Source: a virus | IMG/VR virus record: IMGVR_UViG_3300033153_008451 | Span: 1 to 47,947 of that record | Reading direction: 5' to 3' (one strand) | Length of the DNA stretch: 47,947 bases | Part shown: in pieces, positions 22,552-47,947 of the stretch | Position numbering within the stretch: the first letter of the stretch is position 1 | Layout of the letters: each line of letters begins with the position of its first letter | The notes under the pieces: model-generated | The model's database searches: none | What the model was told of the DNA's origin: nothing | Seen by the model: only the letters and a program-made list of their open reading frames with translations | Translations under genes and position numbers: made by a program

Positions 22552-22555
22552 GCAA

Positions 22556-23898: not shown

Positions 23899-23906
23899 GG
23901 TGCAAT

Positions 23907-24928: not shown

Positions 24929-24935
24929 GGAAATT

Positions 24936-25310: not shown

Positions 25311-25314
25311 AAGA

Positions 25315-25599: not shown

Positions 25600-25610
25600 A
25601 GAGGATTGAT

Positions 25611-26856: not shown

Positions 26857-26881
26857 ATTAATAAAGAGAAGGAGAAATGAG

Positions 26882-27118
26882 ATGGGAGAGAAAGCAGATT
26901 ATGAATTTAACCACGGAAAAGTGCTACAAGATAAAAGCACTGGATTTAAAGGAACTGTTGTCGGTCGTGCAGATTATCTTATAGGTTGCAATCAATATTT
27001 GCTTGTCCCCAAAATTAATAAAGACGGTGAATTTAAAAAAGGTTGTTGGTTTAATGAACAGCAGCTTATTGAAGTTTCGGAAACAAAAGAAAAGAATTTA
27101 ATTAAAAAGGAGAAATGA
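26882..27118 (+). CDS. Small conserved phage protein (HGKVL...GFKGTVVGRADY type)
   Basis: A 78-residue protein with HGKVLQDKSTGFKGTVVGRA, then ADYLIGCNQYLLVPKI and CWFNEQQLIEV. This SH3-like beta-barrel-type sequence is widespread in phages next to RyR or lysis genes, with unknown function. It has an AAGGAG site, and its TGA is one base before the next ATG. Its presence beside the RyR gene repeats a common phage pairing. Confidence 0.82.
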   Translation: MGEKADYEFNHGKVLQDKSTGFKGTVVGRADYLIGCNQYLLVPKINKDGEFKKGCWFNEQQLIEVSETKEKNLIKKEK

Positions 27119-27278: not shown

Positions 27279-27773
27279 ATGCCTAAGTATTCTGAAAATA
27301 GTAGAAAAAAGTTAAGACTTGCTCATACTGATTTACAGCGGATATTTGAAGAAGTTATTAAATATTATGACAATACGATTGTTTGGACTTATCGAGGACA
27401 GGAAGTGCAAGATGAGTTTTTTGAAAATGGAAAGAGTAAATTAAAATATCCTGATTCTAAACATAATTGTACTCCTGCTATGGCAGTAGATTCTGCTCCT
27501 TATGTAGATGGTGATGTAAGTGATGATATGTATCAAGGTTATCACTATGCTGGTTTTGTTCTTGGAATTGCTAAGATGTTGTTGAAAGAAGGTGAAATCA
27601 GTCACGAATTGGTTTGCGGTGCCGATTGGGATGGAGATATAGATGTAAATGACCAAACTTTCAGAGACCTTTGGCATTTTCAGTTAGCCGTCCCCTCGCC
27701 TTGTCGCCCAGCCACCCCCTCGCCCCATCACCCATCAACCATCACCCATCACCCATTAACCATGACCCATTAA
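27279..27773 (+). CDS. M15-family peptidase endolysin with repeat-derived tail
   Basis: A 164-residue protein. Residues 1-136 are a complete L-alanyl-D-glutamate (or VanY-like) peptidase domain: S60-K-H62 and A-x-x-D71 (zinc ligands H62 and D71) and the final HFQL with H133. It cuts the peptide side chain of host peptidoglycan at lysis. T5-type endolysins end at about this point. The last 28 residues (PSPCRPATPSPHHPST...) are the translation of C-rich and ACCCATC repeat units, so the natural stop has been replaced. The start has only a weak ribosome site (GGAAAAA), and the upstream gene ends 3 bases before. Confidence 0.9.
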   Translation: MPKYSENSRKKLRLAHTDLQRIFEEVIKYYDNTIVWTYRGQEVQDEFFENGKSKLKYPDSKHNCTPAMAVDSAPYVDGDVSDDMYQGYHYAGFVLGIAKMLLKEGEISHELVCGADWDGDIDVNDQTFRDLWHFQLAVPSPCRPATPSPHHPSTITHHPLTMTH

Positions 27774-27792
27774 CCATGACCCATTAACCATG
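27692..27792. repeat. Repeat tract entering the end of the endolysin gene
   Basis: CGCCTTGTCGCCC and CCCCCTCGCCCC units, then ACCCATC/ACCCATT/AACCATG units. The first 80 bases are read as the endolysin tail. The tract also marks the right edge of the AT-rich DGR cassette. Confidence 0.9.
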
Positions 27793-27800
27793 GAATTAAA

Positions 27801-28376: not shown

Positions 28377-28645
28377 CATGTCGCCCCCTCGCTCTCTCGC
28401 CCTGTCGCCCTGTCGCTCTCTCGCCTCCTCGCCCTGTCGCCCCTTCCTCCTGCCTCCTGCTTCCTTCCTCCTTCTTCCTCCCCGCCCCCTCGCCCCCTCG
28501 CCTCCTCGCCCTGTCGCCCCTTCCTCCTGCCTCCTGCTTCCTTTCTCCTTCTTCCTCCCCGCCCCCTCGCCCCCTCGCCCCCTCTCCCCGTCGCCCCTTC
28601 GCTCAATCGCCTCCCCACCCCGCTCTTTCCTAAACTCTAAACTTC
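28377..28645. repeat. Long C-rich and TTCCTCC tract
   Basis: No gene. CGCCCTGT/CGCTCTCT octamers, two near-identical blocks of TTCCTCC-TGCCTCC-TGCTTCC (28444-28480 and 28520-28558) separated by CGCCCCCT units, then CTAAACTC units and a GGAG site. The two blocks suggest a recent internal duplication of about 77 bases. Confidence 0.92.
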
Positions 28646-28656
28646 TGGAGTAAAAC

Positions 28657-29235: not shown

Positions 29236-29978
29236 TGCCGTTACTAACCAAAAAGAAAACATCTATCAAGCATCCCCTGAATTTTATGGAGATTTTCGCC
29301 GATATTGCCGTCGAACTTCCCGAACAGCCCAATATCGGCATTGTTCGTATAGAGATCAATAAAGTCATCCGTCGGGTAAATGATGAAATCGGACTTTGGC
29401 GGGAAATGATCAGAGTTGCCGCGGGCACCATTACCTCCGGCTGGCAGAACCTCGCAACCAATACCTGGGACAATGAAGATGTTCAAACCTGGGATATGTG
29501 GGGAAAATTTGCTCACGGCTGGGATTATGATCAGACCAACTATATTTTACGCCTCGCCGATACCGTAGTCGAAGTGGAAGAAGTATACTTCGATGGCGAA
29601 GAATGGGAATGTGTACCCTATCAAGAAGTAAAAGACACAAACAATGCCTCTGAAGAAATTTACGCTCAAATAGGCCGTTATCTTTACTTCCCTTTCGACC
29701 TCAAAACATCATCCAAAGTCTGTGATATCCGCGTCAAACAAAATTATTCCTTCTTGGAATCAGTTGTCATAGACTCCACCGTAATAGACCTCCCCGAATC
29801 TTACCGCCAGTTACTTATTTCCGGCGCTCTATACGCCCTCTCATCACGCCAAAAATTCAAAGATGAAGACCTGTTCAAACTTCACAAAGAAACCTTCGAC
29901 CGTGAACTCAGCGCCCTCAAACGTCAGTATTATAACCTTGAAGTAGATACAAATTATGACCCAATTTATAATTATTAA
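29235..29978 (+). CDS. Tail adaptor-like protein, 247 residues
   Basis: A protein with an N-terminal helical part (IGIVRIEINKVIRRVNDEIGLWREMIRV), a beta-rich middle around WDYDQTNYILRLADTVVEVEEVYFDG, and a C-terminal helical end with LPESYRQLLISGALYALSSRQKFKDEDLFKLHKETFDREL. This last pattern (P-x-x-Y/L-x-x-LI-x-GALYAL...F-x-x-EL) is typical of podoviral neck and adaptor proteins, in which the helix packs against the portal. It directly follows the two paralogous adaptors in a TAATG overlap. Exact assignment is uncertain. Confidence 0.8.
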   Translation: MPLLTKKKTSIKHPLNFMEIFADIAVELPEQPNIGIVRIEINKVIRRVNDEIGLWREMIRVAAGTITSGWQNLATNTWDNEDVQTWDMWGKFAHGWDYDQTNYILRLADTVVEVEEVYFDGEEWECVPYQEVKDTNNASEEIYAQIGRYLYFPFDLKTSSKVCDIRVKQNYSFLESVVIDSTVIDLPESYRQLLISGALYALSSRQKFKDEDLFKLHKETFDRELSALKRQYYNLEVDTNYDPIYNY

Positions 29979-30212
29979 CCATGAGCCATCAACCCGCCCC
30001 CTCGCCCCCTCGCCCCCTCGCCTTGTCGCCCAGTCGCCTTGTCGCCCAGTCGCCCCTTCCTCCTTATTCCTTCCTCCTTTCCCCTTCCCCACCCCCTCGC
30101 CCCCTCGCCTTGTCGCCCAGTCGCCTTGTCGCCCCTTCCTCCTTATTCCTTCCTCCTTCCTCCTCGCCCTGTCGCTCTTTAAACCATCACCCATTAACCA
30201 TCAACCATTAAC
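29979..30212. repeat. C-rich and TTCCTCC tract, duplicated
   Basis: No gene. Two similar halves, each CGCCCCCT-CGCCTTGT-CGCCCAGT followed by TTCCTCC-TTATTCC, then CGCTCTTTAAACC and AACCATT units, and a GGAG site for the next gene. Confidence 0.92.
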
Positions 30213-30226
30213 CCACGGAGTATAAA

Positions 30227-32857
30227 ATGGCCGATTATCTTTACGACAACGATCCCAAAGACACCTATAAATGTTTACTGTGTATTGGCAATTTAGCCAA
30301 TCCGGGATTACATGCAACCACTCAAAGAACCGTCTGGACAGATGACGGCGCGGGCGGAAAAACCGACGCCCCCTTCACTCTCGCAAGCGACGCGATGCTA
30401 TTCACCGACGCCAAAGCCCTCGAGTTTCGCCAGGACGCCGAAAAAATTAACTCCTCTACTGCGGGGCAACTTGATATAGACGCCTCCTCTGTTCTCGAAT
30501 TCACCGCCCCGACTATCGAACTTGCCGGAGCAACCCTCATAGACCTTCAGGGCGACGATATAAAAATTGGTGAAGGTGGAGACGCCGATATAGTAATAAC
30601 TTTCAACGCTAACTCCAATAACGGCGTTCTCACCTGGATGGAAGACGAAGACCACTTCAAATTTTCCGACGATTTATTGATCGACGGCGCCGAAAAACTA
30701 TACTTCTTCGATATAGGCGGTGAATATCTTTCCTCAGACGGCGATGATCTCACTATCGCCGCCGGTCGTGATATAAAACTCACCGCCGCCAACGATATAC
30801 ATATTCCTAAAGACGTAGGACTCACCTTCGACTCCGATAACTCAGAAAAGATTGAATCCGACGATACCGACCTCACCATTACCTCCGGCGGCGCCATAAA
30901 ACTCAACGCCGCCACCGATATAAAAATTCCTGCAAATATAGGACTTACTTTCGATACCACTGGCTCGGAAAAGATCGAATCCGACGATACTGACCTCACG
31001 GTTGCTTCCGGCGGCGATATAAACCTTACCGCCACTAATGATATAAATATCCCCGCAAGCGTAGGACTTACCTTCGGAGCAGACACCGAAAAAATAGAAC
31101 AAGACGGTTCCAACAATCTTTCAATAATCGCCGCCGCCGCCCTTACTTTTACCGCCGCCGCTACCTCAATATGGTCAACCTCAGCGGGCAACCTTACCAT
31201 TGATAGTCTCGCCGGGAACCTCATCCTCGACGGTCACACCGGCGTAGACATAGATGCCTCAAACTCCGGCGCCGTAAATATAGACGGAAAAGGTGGCGTA
31301 AATATTGGTACAGCCGCCGATTATCAGATTGACATAGACGCGTCCACCTTCGATTTAGACGCCTCTGATAATTTGGCTATCACAATGAGCGCCAATGATG
31401 CCGCCAAAAAAATCATATCCATTACAGCCTCAAACTCCGGCGCCGGTACCGGATCAATCGTTCTGACTGCCGATGGCAAGATTGAAATCAAATCCAGCGC
31501 CGACGATATTTGTATAGGATCAAATCTCGCTTCCGGTAAAAAAGTAGAACTCGGTAAAGCGGGCGAAACGGTCAGTGTATTGGGAGATTGTGATATTGTA
31601 GGTACTTTGACGTCCGGAACCTACGCCCCCGATGCAATTACCGTCACCCACGCCTCCGACCCGATCATCACCATATACAATACGGAACAATCCAATACCA
31701 AAAACGACCGCCATTGTAAATTGATATTTCAGGGTATCACATCCGGTGCAACAACCCACCAACTCGCCTCAATAATAGCGGATCACGATTCCAGCGACGC
31801 CGATAAAGATGGCGGCCTCTATTTTTACACCAATGACGGCGCCGACGTTGACGATTCCCTCACCGAACGCCTTTATATAGACCACGCGGGCAACGCCCAG
31901 TTCTCTACTAATATTGGTATTCCCGCCACCTCCAAACTCTACTTTGACGGTAAAGCTTGCAGCGGCAACACCTATATTTATGAATCCGGCGCCGACGCCC
32001 TCACCTTTGTTGCAGGCGGAGAATCTGCAATGATCCTCGACGCCAACTCCCGTATTTCACTCAGCAATAATGACAATGGCACCGGCAATACTCTCTTTGG
32101 CTATCAGGCCGGTGAAAATTTAGACGCGGGCAGCAATGATAATACATTCATAGGTGAAAATGTCTCTGACGCTGCTATGAATGACGCTCTGGGAAATACA
32201 GGCATTGGTGCAAATTGTCTAACTGACTTGACAACAGGGGATTACAATAATGCTTTTGGAAATGACAGTTTAGGTAGTCTTACTACCGGTGATTCCAATG
32301 TAGCAATGGGATATAACGCAGGAAACACCCTCACCACCGGTTCTGATAATACCTATATAGGTGACGATGCCACCGCCTCTGCCGTCGATGTTTCTAATGA
32401 AATGGCGCTTGGTCATGACGCCGCCGGACAAGGTGCCAATACCATTATGCTGGGTGACGCCAATATAACCAGCCTTTGTTGCTACGACACCACTATTTCC
32501 AGTCCATCCGACAAAAGAATAAAAAGAGAAATAAAAACTTCCGATTACGGCCTCGACTTCATCAATGCCCTTCGGACTATCACCTATAAACGTAAAAATC
32601 CTTTCGATTATCCCAACAAGATCAAACCCGATGTTTACAAAAAAGAAAATGCAATAAGGCCAGAAGACAACGATACTATTTATGTCGGTCTGGTTGCTCA
32701 GGAAGTTGAAAACATAATGAAAAAAGCCGGATATGATTTTAACCTCATCGCCACCAGTCCCAAAGGGATGAAATCAATAAAATATGGATCCCTCATTATG
32801 CCCATCATCAAAGCGCTCCAGGAATTAGACCAAAAAGTAAACGCTCTTTTAAACTAA
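30227..32857 (+). CDS. Tail fibre with C-terminal S74 chaperone peptidase
   Basis: An 876-residue fibre. Residues about 160-310 contain beta repeats of about 37 residues (GLTFD...SEKIESDDTDLT...SGG). Residues about 610-740 contain short YadA-head-like repeats (GNTLFGYQAGENL; NVAMGYNAGNTLTTG). The end is an intramolecular chaperone of the peptidase S74 type: SPSDKRIKREI (S761 and K766 as the expected Ser-Lys dyad), then GLVAQEVENIM and a closing coiled coil. This domain folds the trimer and then cuts itself off. It is distinct from the DGR target, so the phage has two different fibre-like proteins. Good GGAG site; AT-poor DNA. Confidence 0.93.
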   Translation: MADYLYDNDPKDTYKCLLCIGNLANPGLHATTQRTVWTDDGAGGKTDAPFTLASDAMLFTDAKALEFRQDAEKINSSTAGQLDIDASSVLEFTAPTIELAGATLIDLQGDDIKIGEGGDADIVITFNANSNNGVLTWMEDEDHFKFSDDLLIDGAEKLYFFDIGGEYLSSDGDDLTIAAGRDIKLTAANDIHIPKDVGLTFDSDNSEKIESDDTDLTITSGGAIKLNAATDIKIPANIGLTFDTTGSEKIESDDTDLTVASGGDINLTATNDINIPASVGLTFGADTEKIEQDGSNNLSIIAAAALTFTAAATSIWSTSAGNLTIDSLAGNLILDGHTGVDIDASNSGAVNIDGKGGVNIGTAADYQIDIDASTFDLDASDNLAITMSANDAAKKIISITASNSGAGTGSIVLTADGKIEIKSSADDICIGSNLASGKKVELGKAGETVSVLGDCDIVGTLTSGTYAPDAITVTHASDPIITIYNTEQSNTKNDRHCKLIFQGITSGATTHQLASIIADHDSSDADKDGGLYFYTNDGADVDDSLTERLYIDHAGNAQFSTNIGIPATSKLYFDGKACSGNTYIYESGADALTFVAGGESAMILDANSRISLSNNDNGTGNTLFGYQAGENLDAGSNDNTFIGENVSDAAMNDALGNTGIGANCLTDLTTGDYNNAFGNDSLGSLTTGDSNVAMGYNAGNTLTTGSDNTYIGDDATASAVDVSNEMALGHDAAGQGANTIMLGDANITSLCCYDTTISSPSDKRIKREIKTSDYGLDFINALRTITYKRKNPFDYPNKIKPDVYKKENAIRPEDNDTIYVGLVAQEVENIMKKAGYDFNLIATSPKGMKSIKYGSLIMPIIKALQELDQKVNALLN

Positions 32858-33118
32858 CCCCCCGCCCAGCCGCCCCCTCGCCTTGCCGCCCCCTCGCTCC
32901 TTCCTCCCGCTCTTTTAAACATCAACCCCGCCATTCATGGCGGGAATAGAATCAACCTTAAACCCGCTCCTTTTCGTTTTTTCAAACATTAACCCCGCCA
33001 TTCATGGCGGGAATAGAATCAACCTTAAACCCGCTCCTTTTCGTTTTTTCAAACATTAACCCCGCCATTCATGGCGGGGATAGAATCAATCCCACTAACC
33101 CCGGGCTTTAGCCCGCAA
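32858..33118. repeat. 67-bp tandem palindrome repeats
   Basis: After a short CGCCCCCT tract, the CCCCGCCATTCATGGCGGG palindrome occurs three times with exactly 67-bp spacing (32926, 32993, 33060), each copy joined by GAATCAACCTTAAACCCGCTC and a TTTTCGTTTTTTCAAA spacer. The array ends with the GGGCTTTAGCCC palindrome (33099-33116) and a GGAGG site. No gene. Confidence 0.92.
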
Positions 33119-33132
33119 ACTCGGAGGAACAA

Positions 33133-36737: not shown

Positions 36738-36895
36738 CCATTAACCATTAACCATTCCCCGCCCCGCTCTTTCTCCCCTTCCCCCTGTCGCCCCCTCCCC
36801 CAGTCGCCCCCTCGCCTTGTCGCCCCTTCCTCCTTCCTCCTTTCCCCTTTCTCCTGTTTCCTTCCTCCTTCCTCCTTATCCCTTAATCCTTTAAC
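36738..36895. repeat. C-rich and TTCCTCC tract
   Basis: AACCATT units come first here, then CGCCCCCT, TTCCTCC/TTTCTCC and ATCCTTTAACC units, followed by CCGGAG as ribosome site. The unit order differs from other tracts, with an AACCATT block at each end. Confidence 0.9.
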
Positions 36896-36908
36896 CCCGG
36901 AGCATAAC

Positions 36909-38408
36909 ATGTCATTATGGTCATTACTCCCCGCCGCTGCCAGTACAGCCGCGCTCGCTATGAACAAACCCAAAAAATCCGATTACCGACTAAACACCGG
37001 ATACATCAAAAAATACATCGCCTCCCTTCGCGGCCGCAAAAACGACCGCCAAGTATACAACATGGCCATGCGGCCAATGGTAAAAGCCATAGGCCAGCAA
37101 ACCGGACGAGCCAGACGCAACATAGAAGCCTCATCCGCCCGCTATGGTCTATCAGGTTCCGGCATAGAAGCCCAGCAAAAACTGTCAGCCAACAAAGCCG
37201 CTCTTTCAGCCCTTACCGGCGCTCATGAAAAAGCCGCTCTCAGACAGCAAGCCGAAAACTATCGCATAGACAAATCCATCGACTATGCTATCCAGCGCGA
37301 AGGCTATCACACAGCCCGCGCCAATCTTGCCTTCAATCAGGCCAAAACTCAGTACCGGCGCAACCTTACCGGCGGAATAGTAAATCTTGCCGCCCAGGGC
37401 GCCGCGCAAATAGGTCAGACCATGCAAAACAACAGGCAAGCCTATAACCAAGCCCGCGCCTCCGGCCTCCTCCCCACCGAAACCACTCAACAGGAATTTT
37501 ATGATCAGGCCGCGCAAGCAGGCTACAAAGGCGACTTGGCAAATTACATCGCCTCCCTCCAAGTCCAAAATCAGGACGCCGCTATCAACGCCTACAATAC
37601 CTACCTTGCCAGCCCGTCAGAAGAAAACCTCGCCGCCCTAAAAGAAATCAATCCCGCCCTCCACTCCGGACTCCTCGAACAAACGTCCCGGCAAAAAAAC
37701 ACCCTCATCAACAAAATTCAACAAAGCATTCCCGCCGAGCAACTTCCCGAGAACTTAGAGCAAATGTCCATCCCCGATTTAAATAATCTTCTCGCTCCCC
37801 GCCCAGTCGCCCCGTCGTCCCCTCCACCCTCTCCCCTTCAATACTTCGACGCCGCCCTTACCGACCCCGATGTTTCATCCGGGGATATGACCAGACAATA
37901 TCAAAATTGGCTCCTTACCGGCGAATATGACGAAACTCAGTCCAGTAAAATACAAACCCGTATAAAAACAAAACAAGCCAATGAACTAAAATTTCTCACA
38001 GAACAAGAACAAAAAAAAGAATTCGCCCGCATATACGCCGACAATCGTAATGATCTCAAAGTCAGCCTGGAAAATACCGCCGCCGCCGCTAAATTAACAG
38101 AGGATCCCCACTACCTGAATATCCTAAACTCACTCAATTCTCTTTCCGGTTCCAAACAATCCATTAATATCGTCGAAGCCGATAAATTAAAAGACGAGAT
38201 CAAATCTTTTATAGAAAATATAAAGTTTGATCAAATAGACACTTTACGCCCTGGTGCTTTCAATTTGACAATGAATAATATCGACAACCCCGGCCAAAAG
38301 AAAAATAGGCTCTATCTCTATCTCACCGGTTATGTAGATAATATGCAAAAGGCAATTCCCGCCGAAAATCAGGTTGAAGATTTAATAAATGATTTAATAG
38401 GAGAGTAA
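36909..38408 (+). CDS. Internal virion (ejection) protein
   Basis: A 499-residue, Ala- and Gln-rich helical protein. Its N-terminus (MSLWSLLPAAASTAALAM) is a short hydrophobic helix; next come ARRNIEASSARYGLSGSGIEAQQKLSA and long helices, as in podoviral ejection proteins that leave the head and line a channel across the periplasm. Position after the nozzle gene and before the giant protein fits. Residues about 296-312 (APRPVAPSSPPPSPL) come from C-rich repeat units read in frame at about 37794-37834. Good GGAG site; TAATG overlap with the next gene. Confidence 0.85.
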   Translation: MSLWSLLPAAASTAALAMNKPKKSDYRLNTGYIKKYIASLRGRKNDRQVYNMAMRPMVKAIGQQTGRARRNIEASSARYGLSGSGIEAQQKLSANKAALSALTGAHEKAALRQQAENYRIDKSIDYAIQREGYHTARANLAFNQAKTQYRRNLTGGIVNLAAQGAAQIGQTMQNNRQAYNQARASGLLPTETTQQEFYDQAAQAGYKGDLANYIASLQVQNQDAAINAYNTYLASPSEENLAALKEINPALHSGLLEQTSRQKNTLINKIQQSIPAEQLPENLEQMSIPDLNNLLAPRPVAPSSPPPSPLQYFDAALTDPDVSSGDMTRQYQNWLLTGEYDETQSSKIQTRIKTKQANELKFLTEQEQKKEFARIYADNRNDLKVSLENTAAAAKLTEDPHYLNILNSLNSLSGSKQSINIVEADKLKDEIKSFIENIKFDQIDTLRPGAFNLTMNNIDNPGQKKNRLYLYLTGYVDNMQKAIPAENQVEDLINDLIGE

Positions 38409-41400
38409 TGCTCACTCCGGACAAACTTCCAAAATACAAACAACTCTATGAAATTTGGGACGCCGATCCAAACGCCATTTTAAATTCATCAAAAAAAGAC
38501 GCCGCCCTGAAACTCATCGGTCAATACAAAGATTATCTCAATCAACAAAAACTCCAACAGCAGCAAGCCCGGGAAAACCTCGCCCTCCGCAACTCGCCCT
38601 TTCGCAATTTCGCCCCCTCGCCCAGCCGCCCCCTCGCCCCCTCCCCCCCTCCCCCCGTCGCCCCCTCGCCCCTTCCTCCTTCCTCCTCACCCCCTCGCAC
38701 CCTCGCCCCCTCGCAACCCGCCCCTTCGTCAATCGACCGCCGCCGTCAGCACTATGCCGATCGTGGCTTCGAAACTTATCCCAAAACCCTTAGAGATATA
38801 TACGTCCCACCTCTCGATCCCTCATCCCCCCTTTCTCCTTCCTCCTCGCCCCTTTCTCCTTCCTCCTCCCTCCTTCCTCCTTCCTCCTCTCCCCCTCGCC
38901 CCCTCGCTCCCTCGCCCGGCCGCTCCGGCTCCCCCGATCTCCCCGAATCCTACGCTCAGACCCTAAAACGTCAGGAAATCCAGCGGGAAATAGACGCAAT
39001 CGAAATTCAGGCCGAACAAATAAAAAAAATAGACGCCAAATTAAAACCCTATGAAGACGAACTAAATAAATTCAACCAATTCATAGATCAGGAAACAAAA
39101 TCATTTACCGGTACAGCAAAGCAATACGAAAGATATCAAAAACTTTATCAGCATTATAACAAAATTCTAAAAAAATATCAGCCCAACCTCGACGCCTGGA
39201 ACAATGAACTTCTCCCTCAATATCAAAACCTTATCCAACAATATAATGAACTCCTCCCAAAATATCACTACGCCCAGCCGGAAACCGCTATTCGGCCCGC
39301 CCAGCCCCAGCCCCAGCCCTCAGGCACACCAATAGGCGCGCCCGGATCAGGTTACATCCTCCGGCAACCCGCCCCCTCGTCCCTCCGCCCCCTCTCCTCC
39401 TCGCCTCCCCGCCCCCTCTCCGCCCAATCCCCTCAAATCGCCCAGATGATTTTAGAAGTATCCCGCAAAACCCAAATCCCTCCCCATATAGTAGAAAAAA
39501 ACTTTGAGCCTCTTGTAAAGCAACTTAGCAAAGAATATTTCGGGAAAAAACCCGAAGCCACCGCAATGGAACATGCCGAATTTGCTATGATATTTCCCAT
39601 CGCCGCCGGTTTAATGGCGCATCCTCTCGCAACAGTCAAAGGCGTTCTCTCTTTTGGCGCAGTATCAGAAATGGTCAACGGTCTTACCAGTCTGCTCACC
39701 CAACAAAAATATCAATTCGGCGGCGGCAAAGGTCTTGAACAAGCCGTACCCTATACTTCCACCAATGCCCGAAAAGTTTTAGAAATAATAGATTTTCTTG
39801 GAAAAGCCGCTATTACCCATGGTTTATACAAAGCCGCGCCTGTATTATTTGAGAAATTTACCAAAAATGTTTTCGAAGGTTACAAACTCCCCCGCACAAT
39901 CACCATTTCGCCCGAAGAAGTCCGCGCCGCCCAGATTGACGGCAAAGGAGTTTCCGCAGAAAAACTGCAAGCCCTCAAAGGTCTGAAATCAGGCGCGGAA
40001 TGGCGCGCCGCCCTAAAAAAAGGAACCGTAATAGAACTCGAAGCCAGAGACTTCATAAAAATTGTTGACAAACCCTATTGGCGCAAAATTAAAAAAGCCT
40101 TCAAAGTCAAACCTTTTGAAGAAACTCGATTTCTTGGAAAAAACATAAAACAGCAAACCCTCATCCCCGAATCCTATCGCCTCGAATCTCAAACCAAAGG
40201 CAAAACAGCCCCATCACCCATCACCCATGAACCATCCCCAAAATCTCTCGTCGGAGAACTCGCTCAGAAGCCCGCTAAGAGCCAAACGCAAAAAATTGAA
40301 CCTAAACCCTTAGTAAAAACCACCCCATCAGACATTTCAGACCTGCAACCGCTTAAATCACTAAAATCCACACCCATTACCCATCAACCATCAACCATTC
40401 CGGAATCTTTTGTCACTCCCAAGCCGCAAATCCCCTACAAAACCGTAGCGTCCGCCAAATCCGCCATAAAATCCCGCAAACTATCGCCCGCAACTCACAG
40501 CATTGTAAAAATCAATGACGGTTTCGCGCTTGCGCCCAATAAATTTGTAGGTATTACCAAAATAGGAGGTAATGAACGCCAGGTTTTTCAGACTCCCGAT
40601 GGCAATTTATATGCTTGGAACAAAAAACACACCAAAAAACAATCCTACACATGGAAAGATCTTCAAAAATATAGAAATCGGTCTGCTGCGTCAAAGGCGG
40701 CGTTTTATAATTTACAAGAAAACAATATCCTTATACCTCCAAAAACAGTATCAGGCGGAGATATGCCCGCCCTTTATGCAATCTGGAATGCCGGAGTCGC
40801 CCGCCAAATCGGTAAAGATAGCAAAGGCAAACCATCTTTTGAATATCATTACGATCAAATAAGTGGTTTTCTTATTGGTGACAGCTACATTGGCGCTTCG
40901 CCTATACTCAATCGTAAATCAAAAAAATTTACCTATGATCTCATCGATGGCGCACATCTTGAAGGAAATCAGGAATTTATCAAAAAATATGGACGTCCTG
41001 ACGAAATGACCTTTGACGACGTCAAAGAACTTGCTGAAAAAGAATTAGCGGAATACGCCGAAGGTCTGTATAATGATGTGACTCACCACCGCTTCACCGA
41101 TGATGAAATTGCTCAAATAAAATGGGATAAACTCACTCCCGACGAGCAAAGACTATATATTTTAGAAGATGAAATGGGCGGATTGATTGACGAAGCCGCA
41201 GAAAAAGAATTTCAATTAGAAGAAATACTCAAAAAAGAAACAGATAGCGCCTGGGACGATCTCGAATTTATTAAACAACATGAAAAAGACCGCAAAGAAT
41301 ATTTGCATTTAATTGAAAAAGGTTATATATTAGAATCAGGAGAAATAGATGCAAGAACGCAAACCAAACCCAAAACGAAACAACCGCCTCAAGTTGATAA

Positions 41401-44400
41401 GCGAGATGATCGCCATAAAACGCAACAGCCCCGACCCGGCCTTGGCACAAAGAGCGGCCGACCGTCTCGAACGGATCAGGGAATCAACCGAACGGCAGAT
41501 CGCATTCTTGAAAAACAGAAAAAAACAGAACCCGACCTAAAATCCGCTCCTTCGCCCCCTCGCCCCTCCGCTCCTTCGCCCCCTCGCCCCTCCGCTCCCC
41601 CGCCCCCTCGCCCCGTCACTCCCCCGCCCCCTCGCCCCACATCCGCCACTCACGCCGACGCCGCCGACTATCCTTTTTGGGACAGCCCCGACTACATAGC
41701 AGATCAGCCCTCAGTCATCGGACTACCCGAAATAATCAAACTTAACAAACTCATCACCCAGGGAAAACTCCCCAAAATAATGGATCATCTCCGCAAAGCG
41801 GCCGCTCTCGGTCTAACCAAAGGTGATGAAGCCAATATTCTCGCTGAAATAGCCATAGGTCACAAAATATTTGACAAACAATTCAAAGAAAAGCCCGATC
41901 CCGACAAAATAAAAGCCGAATTTCTCAAAGACAATCCCAAATATTTCAATCAGCCTCTTGAAGTCAAAATCACCCGTCCGCCAAGAGCCAAACAATACAC
42001 ATTGAAAATATTCCGTGTCGATCCCACCCTTTTACAGAGAGTAGTTGCTCACGAACTCGGTCATATAATCGACTTTCTTCCTAACAGATCCACTAATCCC
42101 GGCAATATATTAGGACGAATAGCCAACCTAAAAAAATATCTCAAACACATCCTACCCGAAAAACCGGGCGCGCCGGGCGAACTCACCGCCAAAGACCGCG
42201 CCAGGTTTCGCAATATTGCCCAAAAAAATCTAAAAGGCAAAATAGAAATCAGAGAAATAGTCACCGAAATTCAAAAAGTGATCAATCTCACCCCAAAACT
42301 CATTCATGGCGTTTGGTCGGATATTCACTCCGCTGAAAAATTCCCCGAACTCACAGAATTCGTCGCCATGCTTTCCGACAAAGAAAAAGTTGAATTAATG
42401 AAATCAGCTATCAAAGGCAAAGTACCCGACTGGGCCAAGACCGTTACTAAAACTGAGAAAAAAATAGAAACCCTCGAAGTCAAACTCGACGCAAATCCCG
42501 CCGATATACGCAAAGAATACGAAAGATTGATAGTTGAAGAACTCAAAAAACGCAAACTCTTTCAACTCGAAGAAATAATGTCGGAACTCATAAAACTAAC
42601 CCAAAAATGGAAACCCTTTGATGTCACCGCCAGAAAATCATACGCCAGATACCGTCACAGTAGCCCCGAACTTTACGCCGACGCTATTAGTGTTCTTATC
42701 AACAAACCCGAAATGTTAAAACAAATAGCGCCCTCCTTTTACAAAGCCTTCTTCAACTATCTCGAAAACAAGCCCCGCATAAAAAAGGCATACGATCAAA
42801 TTCAGGCTCTTCTCAAAAAAGGCGAAGACGCAATCTTTGAAGACCGTCTGAAAACATTCTTCGCCGATGTAGAAAAAGGCCGGAAAGTAGCCGATATAGC
42901 CCGCAGACGCAATGAAAAATCCTTCCGTGACCTCTGGGGTGAATTAATGTCCAATTTTGTCACCAAAGGCCACTACCTCCGCAAAGACGTAAAAAAAGCC
43001 AAAGTCAGCCCGGAAAACAATCCCTATTACTTCTACAAACAGATCCCCTATGTAATGTCAAACAACTTCCAATACGTCCGGGATCTCTCAAACACCGTCA
43101 AACTCCCCCTCGAAAAAAACAAAATAGATCAAAAATATTTCGACTTCTACCTTATGCTCATCCGTTCCACCACCGAAAGAAAATACCTTGCCAACCCCGG
43201 CGGTTACAATCTACCCGAAGGCGTAAAAACCCTCCAAAAACTCAAAAAACATCTTGGTACGGAAAAATTTAGCCAACTTGAAAAATCAAAAGCCGCCCTG
43301 ATCAAAGCCAGGAAAGAAAACGTCTTTCCCCTGCTCCGCAAGTCAAAAGCCTATGACAGCAATTTTATGAAATACATAGAAGACAACGAAAACTACTTCA
43401 CTTTCAGCGTTTACAAATTCCTCACCGACAAATATAAATACTCAAATAATCTCCAGTCCGCCAAAATATTTAATCAGATAGGTACATTCGAAGCCATACG
43501 CGGCCCCTTTGAAGCCACTATGTTAAAAGATATTAGCCTGATGGCGGGCGCGGTGCGAACCATTGCCGCTCAGAAACTCGTCGATTTTTACCTCAATCCC
43601 GACAACAAACTCACCGAAAAGATCAGCATCTCAAAAAGAGATGGAAAAGGCCGTATAGTAATGGCTCGCGGCGACTACAAAACCATTAGTTATCTGTACG
43701 AAGGCAAAACCCGCGCCTACGATCTCCCCAAAGAAATCGTGGAAGCCTACGAATACAATGATTTGCACATGCAAACTCTCGTAAAATATCTGAGTATTCT
43801 AAACCGCCCCTTCAAAGAACTATTTGTCGGCAAAAATCCCTTCTGGGCGCTCTTAACCAACCTGCCCCGCGATATAAAGCGCACTTGGATAAATAACCCT
43901 GAAATAACCATTATCAACCTTGCCAAAAATCTCGCCAAAATCGCTCCCGATGTATTCAAAGACGTTTTTCTCGGAATATCCACTCCCAAAGTCAGAAAAT
44001 TATATCAGCAAAGAAGACTCCCCGCCTACCGTCTTTGGATGTCAGGCCGCAACCCCGAAGAATCCTATGCTGATATGGAGATAAAACAATTCGAAACCAG
44101 TCCCCGAAAATATATTGATAATATTTATAATCCTTGGCGCGTGCTAATGACGCTACTTGAAGACATTGCCGCTTTCACCGAAAAAGTTGTCAAAGCAGGT
44201 GGGTCTATTGCTCTTGAAGAACAAGGATTAAGAGGCGCCGAACTCGTCTTTCGCACCATGATCGGTATTGGCTCCCCCGACTTTATGCAAAAAGGTTTTT
44301 ACACCGCCCTCAATAATAATATCAAATTGTTTTCCAATGCCGCAATACAGGGCTGGGACGCCGACATAGAAGCCGTACTAAGAAATCCCCGCTCGTTTTT

Positions 44401-45421
44401 CTTCCGCACCACCGTTGCAAATATTATTCCTAAAATTCTTATGTGGGCCGCCAAAGCCGGAATACTTGCCACGGTTTTCAAATTGCTATCAGATGATCCC
44501 AATGATGAAAAATATGCAAATTGGCTACAAGAAGCTTTCTCGAAAATTCCCGAATATGATCTCACCAATTATCACTGTATACCCATAGGTGAAACCGAAT
44601 CCGGCAAGGTTGTTTATATTATCCGTCCGCCTGACTTTAGCGGCAAGATTATATCCGGTTTAATGTGGAAACTACTCAACATCGAAAAAGACTTCAATCC
44701 CTCTGACATCATCAGATTTGTAAATGGTGAAATGCCCCTTGGTAGTCTCTCACCCGCTATTCAGTTCGCATTAGACGCCCTCGCCTTTGCCGGGGGCAAA
44801 AACATCTGGGATACCTTTCGTGGTCAGACCGCTATCAGCCCCCAGGATTGGACTGCCGGAGGACTCACCCGCCTAAAAGCCTTCTTTAGATATGAATGGA
44901 ACAGCTACGGCGGCTACTATATTTATAAATGGAAATCCGATGATATGATCAAAATTCAATCAGATCTCGAAAAATTTCTTGGCCAGCCCATAATTGGTCA
45001 GGGACTTCGTAAATTTATCCGTGTATCTGATAGAGGTAAAGTAGAAGAATTCCAGCACACCAAAAGAACCAAACAAGCCCTGTCCGCCATAAAAAATAAG
45101 TTAATTGACAGAAGTATTATTTCCTCAATTAACAGCAAAACACCTATAAACAAACTACCTATTGCGGCGCTTTATAAAAAACTCCTCGAAGAAGGCTATG
45201 ACGTAAAGTCACCCCGTGAATTTTTTTCACAATATAAGAAAAAATACAACCAGCAACTACTCCGCAAAAGAGATACCGCTATTAGCCGAAATTTATACTC
45301 AGTTGGTGGATCCGTGAAAACCTACATCGACCTTCAGTTAAAAGATTTGGAAAATATTACCAAACAAGACGTATTGGAAGAACTCGAAAAAATCCACAAT
45401 ATATACACTCTCCCAAAATAA
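38408..45421 (+). CDS. Giant ejection/polyvalent protein with HELGH zincin motif
   Basis: A 2337-residue protein. In order: Pro/Ser/Ala repeat linkers at about 63-105 and 136-175; coiled coil at about 176-290; another Pro-rich linker (about 318-345); a hydrophobic segment (FAMIFPIAAGLMAHPLATV, near 392-410); a Pro-rich linker at about 1047-1080; a zinc metalloprotease motif H1215-E-L-G-H1219 (VVAHELGHIIDFL); long helical regions; and a C-terminal region (about 1880-2200) that resembles large polyvalent-protein domain LPD38 with one hydrophobic span near 2004. It is probably injected with DNA, and the zincin could cut a host protein. The four linkers are made of the intergenic repeat units. 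Confidence 0.88.
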   Translation: MLTPDKLPKYKQLYEIWDADPNAILNSSKKDAALKLIGQYKDYLNQQKLQQQQARENLALRNSPFRNFAPSPSRPLAPSPPPPVAPSPLPPSSSPPRTLAPSQPAPSSIDRRRQHYADRGFETYPKTLRDIYVPPLDPSSPLSPSSSPLSPSSSLLPPSSSPPRPLAPSPGRSGSPDLPESYAQTLKRQEIQREIDAIEIQAEQIKKIDAKLKPYEDELNKFNQFIDQETKSFTGTAKQYERYQKLYQHYNKILKKYQPNLDAWNNELLPQYQNLIQQYNELLPKYHYAQPETAIRPAQPQPQPSGTPIGAPGSGYILRQPAPSSLRPLSSSPPRPLSAQSPQIAQMILEVSRKTQIPPHIVEKNFEPLVKQLSKEYFGKKPEATAMEHAEFAMIFPIAAGLMAHPLATVKGVLSFGAVSEMVNGLTSLLTQQKYQFGGGKGLEQAVPYTSTNARKVLEIIDFLGKAAITHGLYKAAPVLFEKFTKNVFEGYKLPRTITISPEEVRAAQIDGKGVSAEKLQALKGLKSGAEWRAALKKGTVIELEARDFIKIVDKPYWRKIKKAFKVKPFEETRFLGKNIKQQTLIPESYRLESQTKGKTAPSPITHEPSPKSLVGELAQKPAKSQTQKIEPKPLVKTTPSDISDLQPLKSLKSTPITHQPSTIPESFVTPKPQIPYKTVASAKSAIKSRKLSPATHSIVKINDGFALAPNKFVGITKIGGNERQVFQTPDGNLYAWNKKHTKKQSYTWKDLQKYRNRSAASKAAFYNLQENNILIPPKTVSGGDMPALYAIWNAGVARQIGKDSKGKPSFEYHYDQISGFLIGDSYIGASPILNRKSKKFTYDLIDGAHLEGNQEFIKKYGRPDEMTFDDVKELAEKELAEYAEGLYNDVTHHRFTDDEIAQIKWDKLTPDEQRLYILEDEMGGLIDEAAEKEFQLEEILKKETDSAWDDLEFIKQHEKDRKEYLHLIEKGYILESGEIDARTQTKPKTKQPPQVDKRDDRHKTQQPRPGLGTKSGRPSRTDQGINRTADRILEKQKKTEPDLKSAPSPPRPSAPSPPRPSAPPPPRPVTPPPPRPTSATHADAADYPFWDSPDYIADQPSVIGLPEIIKLNKLITQGKLPKIMDHLRKAAALGLTKGDEANILAEIAIGHKIFDKQFKEKPDPDKIKAEFLKDNPKYFNQPLEVKITRPPRAKQYTLKIFRVDPTLLQRVVAHELGHIIDFLPNRSTNPGNILGRIANLKKYLKHILPEKPGAPGELTAKDRARFRNIAQKNLKGKIEIREIVTEIQKVINLTPKLIHGVWSDIHSAEKFPELTEFVAMLSDKEKVELMKSAIKGKVPDWAKTVTKTEKKIETLEVKLDANPADIRKEYERLIVEELKKRKLFQLEEIMSELIKLTQKWKPFDVTARKSYARYRHSSPELYADAISVLINKPEMLKQIAPSFYKAFFNYLENKPRIKKAYDQIQALLKKGEDAIFEDRLKTFFADVEKGRKVADIARRRNEKSFRDLWGELMSNFVTKGHYLRKDVKKAKVSPENNPYYFYKQIPYVMSNNFQYVRDLSNTVKLPLEKNKIDQKYFDFYLMLIRSTTERKYLANPGGYNLPEGVKTLQKLKKHLGTEKFSQLEKSKAALIKARKENVFPLLRKSKAYDSNFMKYIEDNENYFTFSVYKFLTDKYKYSNNLQSAKIFNQIGTFEAIRGPFEATMLKDISLMAGAVRTIAAQKLVDFYLNPDNKLTEKISISKRDGKGRIVMARGDYKTISYLYEGKTRAYDLPKEIVEAYEYNDLHMQTLVKYLSILNRPFKELFVGKNPFWALLTNLPRDIKRTWINNPEITIINLAKNLAKIAPDVFKDVFLGISTPKVRKLYQQRRLPAYRLWMSGRNPEESYADMEIKQFETSPRKYIDNIYNPWRVLMTLLEDIAAFTEKVVKAGGSIALEEQGLRGAELVFRTMIGIGSPDFMQKGFYTALNNNIKLFSNAAIQGWDADIEAVLRNPRSFFFRTTVANIIPKILMWAAKAGILATVFKLLSDDPNDEKYANWLQEAFSKIPEYDLTNYHCIPIGETESGKVVYIIRPPDFSGKIISGLMWKLLNIEKDFNPSDIIRFVNGEMPLGSLSPAIQFALDALAFAGGKNIWDTFRGQTAISPQDWTAGGLTRLKAFFRYEWNSYGGYYIYKWKSDDMIKIQSDLEKFLGQPIIGQGLRKFIRVSDRGKVEEFQHTKRTKQALSAIKNKLIDRSIISSINSKTPINKLPIAALYKKLLEEGYDVKSPREFFSQYKKKYNQQLLRKRDTAISRNLYSVGGSVKTYIDLQLKDLENITKQDVLEELEKIHNIYTLPK
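38590..38725. repeat. C-rich tract inside coding sequence, copy 1
   Basis: CGCCCCCT, CGCCCAGC, CCCCCCTC and TTCCTCC units, the same as in intergenic tracts, read in frame as Ala-Pro-Ser-Pro-type linkers (residues about 63-105 of the 2337-residue protein). Confidence 0.9.
38815..38930. repeat. TTCCTCC and C-rich tract inside coding sequence, copy 2
   Basis: TTTCTCC-TTCCTCC units followed by CGCCCCCT and CGCTCCCT units, read in frame as a Ser/Pro linker (about residues 136-175). Frame is kept through roughly 115 bases of repeats. Confidence 0.9.
39366..39430. repeat. C-rich tract inside coding sequence, copy 3
   Basis: CGCCCCCTCG and CCCTCTCC units giving PAPSSLRPLSSSPPRPLS in frame. Shorter than the other three linkers. 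Confidence 0.85.
41545..41645. repeat. C-rich tract inside coding sequence, copy 4
   Basis: CCTTCGCCCCCTCGCCCCTC units, a near-regular 24-base period read as SAPSPPRP octads, repeated about four times with drift to SAPPPPRP and TPPPPRP. Confidence 0.9.
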
Positions 45422-45437
45422 CCTCATAACTCCCCCT

Positions 45438-45454
45438 TAACCCGCAAGGTTTAA
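45438..45454. repeat. Partial AACCTTG-element arm
   Basis: A CCCGCAAGGTTTAAAT remnant of the palindromic CCTGCAAGGTTTGAAAT arm, lying between the convergent ends of the giant gene and the minus-strand gene. No terminator hairpin with a T-run is seen in this 40-bp gap. Confidence 0.5.
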
Positions 45455-45461
45455 ATCCCAA

Positions 45462-45770
45462 TTAATCCAAACTAACTACTATCTCATCTACACCATCTGG
45501 TATATCAGAAACATTAAATCTAATTTCGTTCCCAAACTCATCGCCGGTTGTTTTAAGAGGAATCTCTACTCCGTTTTCAATATATTGTAAAATAGAATCT
45601 TCTTCAATGTCTTCAAGGTTATCTCCGCCTACTTTTCCCTTAAAAAACTCACTGGTTTCTTTTGGGTAACTAAGTTCGTTTTGAATACAGAATAACACCG
45701 CTTTATAATGTTTCTGAAATTCATCACTGTTTTTACCTGCAAAGGCTTGTACTTTTATATCTGAACTCAT
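45462..45770 (-). CDS. Acidic minus-strand protein, unknown function
   Basis: A 102-residue acidic protein on the minus strand. A strong GGAGGA ribosome site (minus strand, 45775-45780) precedes its ATG. The sequence (KVQAFAGKNSDEFQKHYKAVLFCIQNEL; GGDNLEDIEEDSILQYIENG) looks like a small alpha/beta domain with an acidic end (DIPDGVDEIVVSLD). It and the small gene before it are the only genes I accept on the minus strand, divergent from the HTH gene at 46319. A lysogeny-maintenance, anti-repressor or immunity role would fit the position, but no family is recognised. Confidence 0.8.
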   Translation of the reverse strand: MSSDIKVQAFAGKNSDEFQKHYKAVLFCIQNELSYPKETSEFFKGKVGGDNLEDIEEDSILQYIENGVEIPLKTTGDEFGNEIRFNVSDIPDGVDEIVVSLD

Positions 45771-45795
45771 TTTTTCCTCCCGGTTTTGTTTATTT

Positions 45796-45933
45796 TTATG
45801 CCTTCATTTTATTGATTTCCTCTTGATAAAGCGCTTCTATTTCTTTTTTCCCTCTATTAGTTTTAGAACATAAGGCTGGCAGGATTCGATACCTGCAAAA
45901 GGGTTTCTCCGATTTTGTCTGGTATTTGGTCAT
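45796..45933 (-). CDS. Small minus-strand basic protein, 45 residues
   Basis: A minus-strand frame 25 bases upstream of the acidic gene. It encodes MTKYQTKSEKPFCRYRILPA, then LCSKTNRGKKEIEALYQEEI, a Cys-containing basic start and a helical end. There is no Shine-Dalgarno sequence before its ATG. The middle of the frame coincides with a tRNA-3'-end-like sequence (45871-45896), so an alternative is that this stretch is an attachment site that happens to be open. Moderate to low confidence as a gene. Confidence 0.4.
   Translation of the reverse strand: MTKYQTKSEKPFCRYRILPALCSKTNRGKKEIEALYQEEINKMKA
45871..45896 (-). other. tRNA 3'-end-like sequence, candidate attP core
   Basis: On the minus strand a T-arm-like GCAGG-TATCGAAT-CCTGC is followed directly by CAGCCTTA, as in the T-arm, acceptor strand and discriminator of a tRNA. 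The loop has one base more than a normal 7-base T-loop. Many integrases use the 3' end of a tRNA gene as attB, and the phage attP then carries a copy of it. An 8-bp inverted match (CAGCCTTA, plus strand 45991-45998) lies 127 bp away, but the enclosed sequence does not fold as a tRNA. Confidence 0.35.
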
Positions 45934-46177
45934 TTATAAAAAAACGACTAAATCAGCATACAACACTCCCGGAACGTTTATCTTTCGCCACAGCCTTATA
46001 TTTCAAATACCTACTATATTAATATTTTAAAAACAAAAAGCAAAGAAAAAAATAAAAAACTACTTTTTTTCTTCCCCAAAAAGAATATCCTGTGCATTTA
46101 TCCCCCTTTCTCCTTCCTCCTTCCTCCTTTCTCCTCACCCCTTTTTCAATTTTTTTTCAATTTTTTTTATTTTTTAC

Positions 46178-46206
46178 TTGACATTGATTTGACGTTTCAT
46201 TATTTT
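46178..46206 (+). promoter_or_regulatory. Sigma70-type promoter for the HTH gene
   Basis: Perfect TTGACA (46178-46183), 17-base spacer, TATTTT (46201-46206; 4 of 6). The spacer contains TTGATTTGACG, overlapping near-repeats of the -35, which may be operator-like. Confidence 0.75.
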
Positions 46207-46259
46207 ATGTTTAAGTGTTTTTTAAAAAAACAGACATTACAAAGATTTTTAAAAAAATG

Positions 46260-46286
46260 AGGGCAATAAACGGAAGGTATCGCCCT
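46260..46286 (+). promoter_or_regulatory. Leader hairpin upstream of the HTH gene
   Basis: AGGGC (46260-46264) pairs with GCCCT (46282-46286), extended by ATA/TAT past one mismatch. It lies in the 5' leader, 33 bases before the start codon, with an AACCATTAACC unit and a GGAGG site in between. Confidence 0.5.
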
Positions 46287-46318
46287 TAATTTCAACCATT
46301 AACCCACGGAGGGAATCT

Positions 46319-46810
46319 ATGAGTGTTTCGATACGGAATTTTTTTTCTATAAGCGACCGGCGATTTAAAAAAATTTCAAAAAATTTAAAAAGATACAATA
46401 TCAAGCAAATAGATATTGCGAAAAGTTGGGGTATTTCCCCGTCTTATCTCAATGCTATTTTGAGACATCCAAAAAAAAATGAAAAAAACAAAGAAATTTT
46501 TCAATTCATAAAAAGACTCGTCAAAAACCGCCAATTATTAATCAAAAACCAAAAATCCGCAGACATCCGTGGCCTCACCCTCCCATCCCCTCGCCCCCTC
46601 GCTCAGTCGCCCTACCGCCCCACCACCTCCGCCCCCGTCATTAAATTTCATCAATCACACCCTCCCTTAACCTCTAAACTTTTAGAATCTCTGCCCATAG
46701 GCGCTAATTTCCCGTTCCCTCAAAATCCGCCCTCCGAAGTCAGCGCCCCGTCCCCCGACCCATCAACCATCAACCATAAACCATCAACCATTTCTAACAA
46801 TGACGAATAA
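46319..46810 (+). CDS. HTH protein with repeat-derived C-terminal half
   Basis: A 163-residue protein. Residues 14-60 are a small helix-turn-helix domain: FKKISKNLKRYNIKQIDIAKSWGISPSYLNAIL, in which IKQIDIAKSWGISPSYL is the HTH. Residues 80-163 are low-complexity Pro/Ser/Thr sequence encoded by C-rich and AACCATC repeats (46575-46645 and 46755-46795). It has its own sigma70 promoter and a strong GGAGG site, and lies opposite the minus-strand operon. A repressor or Cro-like regulator is the best guess. The repeat-derived tail is unlikely to fold. Confidence 0.82.
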   Translation: MSVSIRNFFSISDRRFKKISKNLKRYNIKQIDIAKSWGISPSYLNAILRHPKKNEKNKEIFQFIKRLVKNRQLLIKNQKSADIRGLTLPSPRPLAQSPYRPTTSAPVIKFHQSHPPLTSKLLESLPIGANFPFPQNPPSEVSAPSPDPSTINHKPSTISNNDE

Positions 46811-47135
46811 TATAAACCCCTCATCCCCCGGCGCCAGTAGATATGATTGCCGTATGCAAAGTTCCCCCCTCGCATCAATTCCCGCCTACACAGCCCGCCC
46901 CAAAGTCGCCGGGGGTATCCTACCATCATCATCAACCATTCCCCAAACCCTAATTTCCCCCTTCTCCTTCCCCCTTTCTCCTTTCTCCTTCCCCCTTTCT
47001 CCTTCCCCCTTTCTCCTTTCTCCTTATCCCTCCCCCACCCTACCGCTCTTTTAAACATTAACCCCGTCATTCATGGCGGGGATAGAATCAATCCCCTGCT
47101 AACCCCGGGCTTTAGCCCGCAAACCGGAGGAACAA
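46811..47135. repeat. Intergenic region with TTTCTCC tract and palindrome pair
   Basis: About 325 bases without an accepted gene. First about 120 bases of C-rich but non-repetitive DNA (a doubtful frame starts at 46800), then CCCTTTCTCC units (46955-47035), the CGCTCTTTTAAAC block, and the palindromes CCCC-GTCATTCATGG-CGGGG (47062-47081) and CCCGGGCTTTAGCCCGC (47104-47120), then a GGAGG site. Confidence 0.8.
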
Positions 47136-47818: not shown

Positions 47819-47910
47819 AAACCCAACACTTCACAATACCACAATCAATCATCACTTCCCTCACCTTGTCACTCTTTCAAACATTAGCCCCGTCATTCAT
47901 GGCGGGGTAA
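47815..47910 (+). CDS. 31-residue frame running into the terminal repeat, doubtful
   Basis: An ATG overlapping the previous stop (ATGA) opens a 31-residue frame that enters the terminal repeat and ends within the REP-like palindrome (its last residues are MAG). The ATGA junction favours translation, but the end is clearly encoded by a mobile palindrome, so this may be the truncated remnant of a longer gene. Low confidence. Confidence 0.3.
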   Translation: MKTQHFTIPQSIITSLTLSLFQTLAPSFMAG

Positions 47911-47947
47911 AAAGTCATCCCTTAGAACCCACGGGCTTTAGCCCGCA
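47834..47947. repeat. Right copy of the exact 114-bp terminal direct repeat
   Basis: Identical to 1-114, including both REP-like palindromes (47888-47907 and 47932-47945). Confidence 0.9.

Follow-up and report, generated by a model that had tools for sequence, protein, structure and literature searches.

How can short tandem repeats whose unit is not a whole number of codons lie inside protein-coding genes without breaking them? This question is raised by IMG/VR virus record IMGVR_UViG_3300033153_008451, which we analyzed over its full 47,947 bases ("the window"). Tandem arrays of 7- and 8-nucleotide (nt) units lie mainly between its genes, in the leaders of the genes that follow, and also in frame in several open reading frames (ORFs). 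A first-pass annotation, made from the letters alone, had read them as intergenic units inserted into proteins. That observation was right, if somewhat under-counted, and its interpretation was partly supported. The explanation that we consider probable is that C-rich, G-poor leader arrays grow and get copied and that reading frames tolerate them as peptides.

Repeat families of the spacers

We distinguished four unit families: the 8-nt family O1 (TCGCCYNN) and the 7-nt families H1 (MCCATNA), H2 (CTCCTTY), and T (CTAAACY). Under a mask that required two units with at most one mismatch, these families covered 5.7% of the window and lay almost solely on the + strand, where nearly all window genes are found. 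Masked nucleotides on the + and minus strands numbered 1474 and 16 for O1, 717 and 16 for H1, 541 and 30 for H2, and 101 and 0 for T. The masked share was 28.4% of spacer bases versus 2.1% of coding bases in 45 chosen ORFs, and T in its masked form took up 101 spacer bases and 0 coding bases. For this count, an ORF made entirely of array (46800-47054) and a minus-strand ORF (45462-45770) were treated as coding; both were left out of the in-gene tests of unit variants and periods given below. The only features common to all four families are the unit length of 7 to 8 nt, an excess of C over G, and the orientation along the transcript strand.

Many spacers share the order O1, H2, O1, and H1, followed by the start codon, while some differ. 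In 7 of 12 spacers, the array ended 6 to 12 nt upstream of the start. The following spacers illustrate the arrangement:

19226-19465, + strand: example spacer with O1, H2, O1, and H1; 7 nt separate the array from the start of the following ORF
20063-20227, + strand: spacer with O1, H2, O1, and H1; a 141-nt stretch matches 30071-30211
28377-28656, + strand: spacer in which a 77-nt composite block is repeated in tandem (93% matches)
29979-30226, + strand: spacer with a tandem 79-nt composite block
36738-36908, + strand: spacer with H1, O1, and H2; 36765-36891 matches 19228-19354

The likeness between distant spacers extends to whole blocks. Compared in register, 20072-20212 matches 30071-30211 with 82% identity across 141 nt, and 19228-19354 matches 36765-36891 with 79% identity across 127 nt. 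Tandem composite duplications of 77 nt (28406-28600) and 79 nt (30013-30158) were also present. The array RNA is nearly unstructured on the + strand, with a median minimum free energy (MFE) of -0.9 per 78 nt versus -11.1 elsewhere, and the median C/G ratio is 5.2 in arrays versus 1.2 elsewhere.

Relatives of the window lack such arrays: the longest tract in 18 loci (234 kb) was 21 nt, and the spacers flanking the capsid gene, which are 171 and 203 nt long in the window, measure 10 to 23 nt in relatives. Four loci (L057, L059, L062, and L063) stand outside the 18-locus set, since their ORF lengths and match positions mark them as a fragment or near duplicates; they were kept in the homologue comparison below. 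L037 and L040-L042 repeat records already in the set.

Arrays inside reading frames

We compared 9 of the 45 genes with codon-shuffled versions of themselves. The claim that spacer-type units occur inside coding sequence was borne out, and the tracts were mostly above these controls. A protein of 2337 residues contained 408 masked nt (shuffle mean, 18; maximum, 52). A helix-turn-helix (HTH) protein had 76 masked nt against a shuffle maximum of 34, an endolysin had 85 against 19, and ORF 18221-19225 had 49 against 38. The single tract announced for a 499-residue protein was found as 30 nt of O1; the longest shuffled tract was 21 nt, but one shuffle totalled 48. ORF 4452-5099 was marginal (22 masked nt versus a maximum of 21), and the portal gene, the capsid gene, and ORF 33513 were at background. 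The features read in frame or next to these frames are as follows:

38408-45421, + strand: 2337-residue protein; conserved C-terminal domain at about residues 1205-2234, with an AHELGH motif
38590-38715, + strand: linker 1 of this protein (O1 octamers and a short H2 stretch), about residues 61-103
38827-38919, + strand: linker 2 (H2 heptamers, then O1), about residues 140-171; lag-21 identity, 0.89
39386-39418, + strand: linker 3 (O1), about residues 327-337
40208-40239, + strand: H1 tract, about residues 601-611
40370-40401, + strand: H1 tract, about residues 655-665
41545-41640, + strand: linker 4 (O1, with a 24-nt higher-order period; lag-24 identity, 0.90), about residues 1046-1078
36909-38408, + strand: 499-residue protein; homologue in IMG/VR record G003 (residues 8-169, 43%)
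37795-37824, + strand: in-frame O1 tract of the 499-residue protein, from the mask and codon shuffles
46319-46810, + strand: HTH protein; family match at residues 17-59 (phrog_1468), repeat-bearing tail from about residue 83
46586-46794, + strand: O1-to-H1 leader block, predicted to be read as the HTH protein's tail; 46800 is the start of an ORF
27689-27794, + strand: O1-to-H1 leader of gene 27801, overrun by the endolysin ORF (27279-27773)
18190-18253, + strand: H1 array that contains the start codon of ORF 18221-19225 and encodes its initial residues (MTHHPSTINHS)
20018-20062, + strand: closing part of ORF 19466-20062, in which T-type units of a 6-nt form encode KPKPKSKPKSKPKP
4578-4720, + strand: leader-like block in frame in ORF 4452-5099; its tandem part is marginal

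The 2337-residue protein carries six in-frame tracts. Four of them are the O1/H2 linkers that the first-pass annotation had named; the two H1 tracts had been missed. Its C-terminal domain is common to 11 IMG/VR loci and Pelagibacter phage Baldr, at 24 to 36% identity. In one of these loci, L054, homologues of residues 347-538 and 1103-2245 lie within one polypeptide, and linker 4 and both H1 tracts sit between the matching blocks, in one open frame in the window. Since those blocks form a single polypeptide in L054, linker 4 and both H1 tracts must, on this alignment, be read in frame.

An alignment of homologues had been proposed as a check, with the same linkers at the same positions in distant phages as the refuting outcome; this outcome did not arise. 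None of the 12 homologues (the 11 IMG/VR loci and Baldr) has the linkers at the window positions, and the double-unit pattern of the repeat families is absent from all 12 loci. L054 alone has Pro-rich stretches, which are different and lie elsewhere (its residues 309-429). This absence is weak evidence, because the homologues are only 24 to 36% identical and none of them aligns across the three N-terminal linkers. Direct scans with the 2337- and 499-residue proteins returned no homologues, and a search of phage records with the 499-residue protein likewise returned none. Among nine IMG/VR loci (L028-L036) with relatives of the window's portal, at about 50 to 53% identity, one had a homologue of the 499-residue protein and none had a detectable homologue of the 2337-residue protein. 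The homology of the 499-residue protein stops at residues 8-169, so its repeat tract lies outside the comparable region.

Where the conserved domain of the 2337-residue protein begins, there is an HExxH-type motif (AHELGH, window 42030-42070), which is kept in L053 and L054 and corresponds to the invariant H11 E12 L13 G14 H15 of Baldr. A Pfam scan gave no match for the domain that bears it. The motif makes the domain a possible candidate for a virion metallopeptidase.

Of the three proteins in which insertions had been claimed, the 2337- and 499-residue proteins have internal tracts, but the HTH protein does not. More than 80 of its residues had been assigned to repeats; an array is indeed in its tail, but that figure corresponds to the whole tail, and the array covers 76 nt (about 25 codons). 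The endolysin ends similarly: its phrog_465 match stops at residue 137, its tail is encoded by 27689-27773, and the ORF stop falls inside the H1 array. Because both tails have the O1-then-H1 order of a leader and an ORF starts after them, we predict that they are read-through into the leader of the next gene and not insertions.

The endolysin ORF is one of three in-frame cases beyond those first listed, the others being ORF 18221-19225 and ORF 19466-20062 with its KPKPKSKPKSKPKP tail, in which the 6-nt form of the T-like array avoids the stop. The block in ORF 4452-5099 is composed of a CCTTGTAGG..CCTGCAAGG dyad, H1, a CCGCTCTTT link, the palindrome CCCCGTCATTCATGGCGGGG, and GGGCTTTAGCCC.

Open frames and the origin of the in-gene arrays

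The first-pass annotation had argued that octamers and heptamers do not suit codons, so that survival of the frame implies selection after insertion. Our counts reverse this argument. Stop codons made up 0 of 1408 overlapping forward triplets in O1 and 0 of 505 in H2, compared with 42 of 671 in H1 and 11 of 89 in T; H1 in its CCATCAA form is stop-free too. In addition, neither 7 nor 8 shares a factor with 3, so that an array passes through every phase and yields one cyclic peptide whatever the entry frame: SPPRPLAP for TCGCCCCC, LLPPSSF for CTCCTTC, and NHQPSTI for ACCATCA, identical in all three frames. At 99 nt, array segments were open in 81% of forward frames and 53% of reverse frames, versus 41% for random window segments. 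The frame constraint is net length modulo three alone, a 1 in 3 chance per array, and survival of the frame is not in itself a sign of selection.

The mechanism that we propose is that the four 7- to 8-nt families expand and are copied as composite blocks in leaders, with the C-rich strand always the transcript. A frame could then accommodate an array as a linker rich in Pro, Ser, and Ala, as an N-terminal start, or as a C-terminal tail. The tracts of the 2337-residue protein are true internal linkers, while the endolysin and the HTH protein are predicted to read through the leader of the next gene. Growth would be by slippage and spread by the copying of leader blocks, and the peptides would be disordered and nearly neutral. 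The strand bias, the stop-free O1 and H2 units, the forward openness of the arrays, the single peptide per array, and the composite blocks common to distant spacers support this explanation. It is further supported by the likeness of mismatch profiles in spacers and genes, the leader-type order of the endolysin and HTH tails, the single polypeptide of L054, and the lack of long tracts in relatives, and the claim that new linkers come from spacer-type repeats was upheld.

Several points weigh against it. The searches turned up neither a host nor a close relative that carries these repeats, and because of this we infer the direction of change (gain here or loss elsewhere) and the mechanism of spread. 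The endolysin and HTH tails are predicted from ORFs only. Mono-shuffled array DNA was equally open at 99 nt (0.86 versus 0.81), so what keeps the frames open is a composition rich in C and poor in A/T, and not the exact units. Some signs also point to selection on the proteins. Octamer variants ending in TG, which code Cys in one phase, were depleted in genes, at 1 of 31 compared with 28 of 90 for spacers (p = 0.001). A period that is a multiple of the codon is seen in two gene arrays, with identities of 0.90 at lag 24 and 0.89 at lag 21; one spacer array likewise reaches 0.89 at lag 21, and most other gene arrays have no such period.

Other tests for selection on the peptides gave little. Mismatches at the three codon positions of gene O1 arrays (28/133, 22/134, and 22/131; expected, 26.7, 28.3, and 27.9) carried no signal, and stop-capable H1 variants, at 7 of 26 in genes versus 21 of 42 in spacers, did not differ significantly (p = 0.078). 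The mismatch profile per unit position was alike in spacers and genes (C2, 1/124 and 1/52; C4, 1/120 and 3/52). These comparisons suggest tolerance with weak purging.

As for a source, a scan of genome contigs and viral contigs for the O1-H2 composite gave 0 matches, and searches of plasmid and phage DNA gave none. O1 arrays occurred in 4 other viral stretches, isolated. A composite of the CCGCTCTTTAAACC link and H1 had one isolated genome match, in a rumen Clostridia metagenome-assembled genome, which we treated as chance and not as a host.

Two further views take the leaders as their starting point, and we hold both as tentative. One is that units coprime with the codon are frame-proof linker DNA: the leader repeats would be kept for a role in RNA and would at the same time keep this phage lineage supplied with linkers, tails, and gene fusions. 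Wherever an array landed, or an upstream stop codon was lost, the same flexible peptide would follow in every frame. The other, possible to about the same degree, is that the C-rich unstructured leader acts at the RNA level, as a Rho utilization site or a leader of the ribosomal protein S1 type, and that linkers arise incidentally where the RNA is covered by ribosomes. Such a role is compatible with the growth and copying of leader arrays. It would suit four unlike families that agree only in length, C excess, and orientation; the C/G and MFE contrasts (5.2 versus 1.2 and -0.9 versus -11.1 per 78 nt); and the position of the arrays, which in 7 of 12 spacers stop 6 to 12 nt short of the start codon. 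RhoTermPredict, as described, seeks regularly spaced C in a C-rich 78-nt stretch (PMC6407284). However, any C-rich array scores likewise, relatives without arrays manage with 10- to 23-nt spacers around the capsid gene, and the window's low-GC modules are almost array-free.

We think it unlikely that mobile repeat elements inserted at random and were kept where the frame survived and the peptide was useful, as in the Rickettsia palindromic elements (RPEs) to which the arrays had first been likened. The same unit families do occur in genes and spacers, the linkers are absent from the 12 homologues, and Cys-coding units are depleted in genes. Yet neither element ends nor target duplications nor empty sites were seen; the arrays are unstructured and not palindromic, two cases are leader read-through, and the codon-position signal is absent. 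We give slightly less credit still to an origin of the in-gene arrays by codon-multiple slippage of local Pro/Ser/Ala codons, with the likeness to spacers due to the C-rich strand. The 24- and 21-nt higher-order periods of two gene arrays and the 6-nt T-unit form in ORF 19466-20062 fit such slippage, but codon shuffles of equal usage fail to make the tracts (408 nt versus at most 52), and a single gene combines three families just as the spacers do, with a mismatch profile common to genes and spacers.

Very improbable, finally, is that mis-assembly or ORF calling makes the arrays seem coding. The window is a metagenomic contig in which arrays are hard to assemble, and ORFs 28378-28653 and 29956-30225 are open merely through being arrays. 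Nevertheless, the conserved blocks on the two sides of linker 4 share its frame, no stop separates the endolysin and HTH tails from the real domains before them, and the contig has identical 114-nt ends that suggest a closed genome.

Known systems and genome context

Of known systems, the amino acid tandem repeats of Borgs and dispersed heptamer repeats come nearest to the arrays of the window. The Borg repeats are described as perfect and unique to each locus, with in-ORF units all divisible by three (PMC9879509). Borgs resemble the window in being extrachromosomal elements with genes on one strand and tandem repeats in both spacers and ORFs, and in having Pro-rich, disorder-type residues with Cys nearly absent, although disorder in the phage is judged by residue type only (PMC9879509). 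The phage units differ in being imperfect 7- and 8-mers common to many loci (PMC9879509). Units divisible by three were not found in the window, where a 21- or 24-nt higher-order period occurs in two gene arrays only; nor were perfect, locus-unique units, since four imperfect families are spread across loci. The disorder-promoting residues and the avoidance of Cys are shared, with Pro/Ser/Ala-rich linkers and Cys-coding variants at 1/31 versus 28/90.

The TAACTGA heptamers of Beggiatoaceae are reported to be mostly intergenic, mostly just upstream of starts, and in forward orientation; they have stops in all forward frames, so that they only end ORFs, and an S1-type leader role was proposed for them (PMC4679880). 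Dispersed heptamers of the GGGAATC type are described from Xanthomonas and Nostoc (PMC4692102). The window matches these systems in that many of its loci, chiefly intergenic ones, carry tandem units about 7 nt long (PMC4679880, PMC4692102), and its arrays, like TAACTGA, lie close upstream of starts in forward orientation (6 to 12 nt in 7 of 12 spacers) (PMC4679880). Unlike TAACTGA, the main phage units are stop-free and run through ORFs (PMC4679880), and the phage also has an 8-nt family and composite blocks, which set it apart from the accounts of both heptamer systems (PMC4679880, PMC4692102).

RPEs are reviewed as 105- to 146-bp stem-loops, spacer repeats fused in frame into proteins (PMC2229807). 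Phage spacer repeats are also in frame inside protein genes, but they form unstructured tandem arrays, and palindromy is confined to the CCCCGYCATTCATGGCGGGG element in ORF 4452-5099 (PMC2229807). At an MFE of -0.9 per 78 nt, the arrays do not form a long palindromic stem-loop of about 105 to 146 bp.

The nearest parallel in other phages is an array of CCATCAA. In IMG/VR, 24 of 26 stretches with such an array have it in a forward ORF of at least 100 residues (null, 0.69; P = 0.003), a count that includes the near-identical contig pairs L002/L027, L004/L007, L005/L024, and L013/L015 and in which L010, L014, and L023 are one contig. None of these 26 stretches shows the double-unit pattern of O1 or H2. 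Among 10 CCATCAA-array proteins scanned, 7 were primosomal or O-like replication initiators (L002, L004, L005, L008, L011, L017, and L018), in which the array codes an NHQPSTI-type linker. In phage lambda, the origin lies inside the initiator gene; by analogy, the CCATCAA array in these genes may be an origin. A literature search turned up no phage case of in-frame octamer or heptamer repeats, which is not proof of absence.

Turning to the rest of the window, the first 114 bases are identical to the last 114, and this identity suggests that the genome is closed. Its gene products include a P22-like portal (Pfam P22_portal; E = 5.7e-56), a tyrosine integrase, and an O-like replication protein, and a reverse transcriptase gene lies beside an Rfam RT-17 RNA; a tRNA search of the window found none. 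The O-like replication gene (1658-2494) contains five 21-nt repeats (ACCATTATCAAAAAAGATAAT) at 1988-2093, which are probable origin iterons.

Positions 20228-23611 resemble a diversity-generating retroelement, with a tail protein ORF (20228-22288; phrog_5302), a similar short copy of the end of that ORF (22297-22551), the RT-17 RNA (22471-22559), and the reverse transcriptase (RVT_1). Repeat arrays are absent from the low-GC, positive-skew block at about 20228-27000, as if it were a later acquisition, and from most of 7300-10500. The tail-spike ORF (30227-32857) has three 123-nt (41-codon) repeats at 30746-31114 and a Peptidase_S74 chaperone domain at its end.

A palindromic element, AACCCCGYCATTCATGGCGGGG, occurs at 46-121, 4643-4718, 32917-33126, 47053-47128, and 47880-47947. 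It is mostly followed by GGGCTTTAGCCC and in several cases also by a GGAGGA-type site and ATG. We presume a likeness to transposon-end or repetitive extragenic palindromic (REP) hairpins. The first palindrome is present in 9 other viral stretches, there without the tandem families, and we rejected it as a host marker on that account.

Tandem repeats inside ORFs are usually expected to have units of 3n nt. Here, units of 7 and 8 nt without forward stops give one peptide per array in every frame, and leader DNA can enter proteins without any fit between unit and codon. If this were also true in other elements of the host, it would offer a route, open to testing, by which spacer DNA could become disordered segments and C-terminal extensions of proteins.

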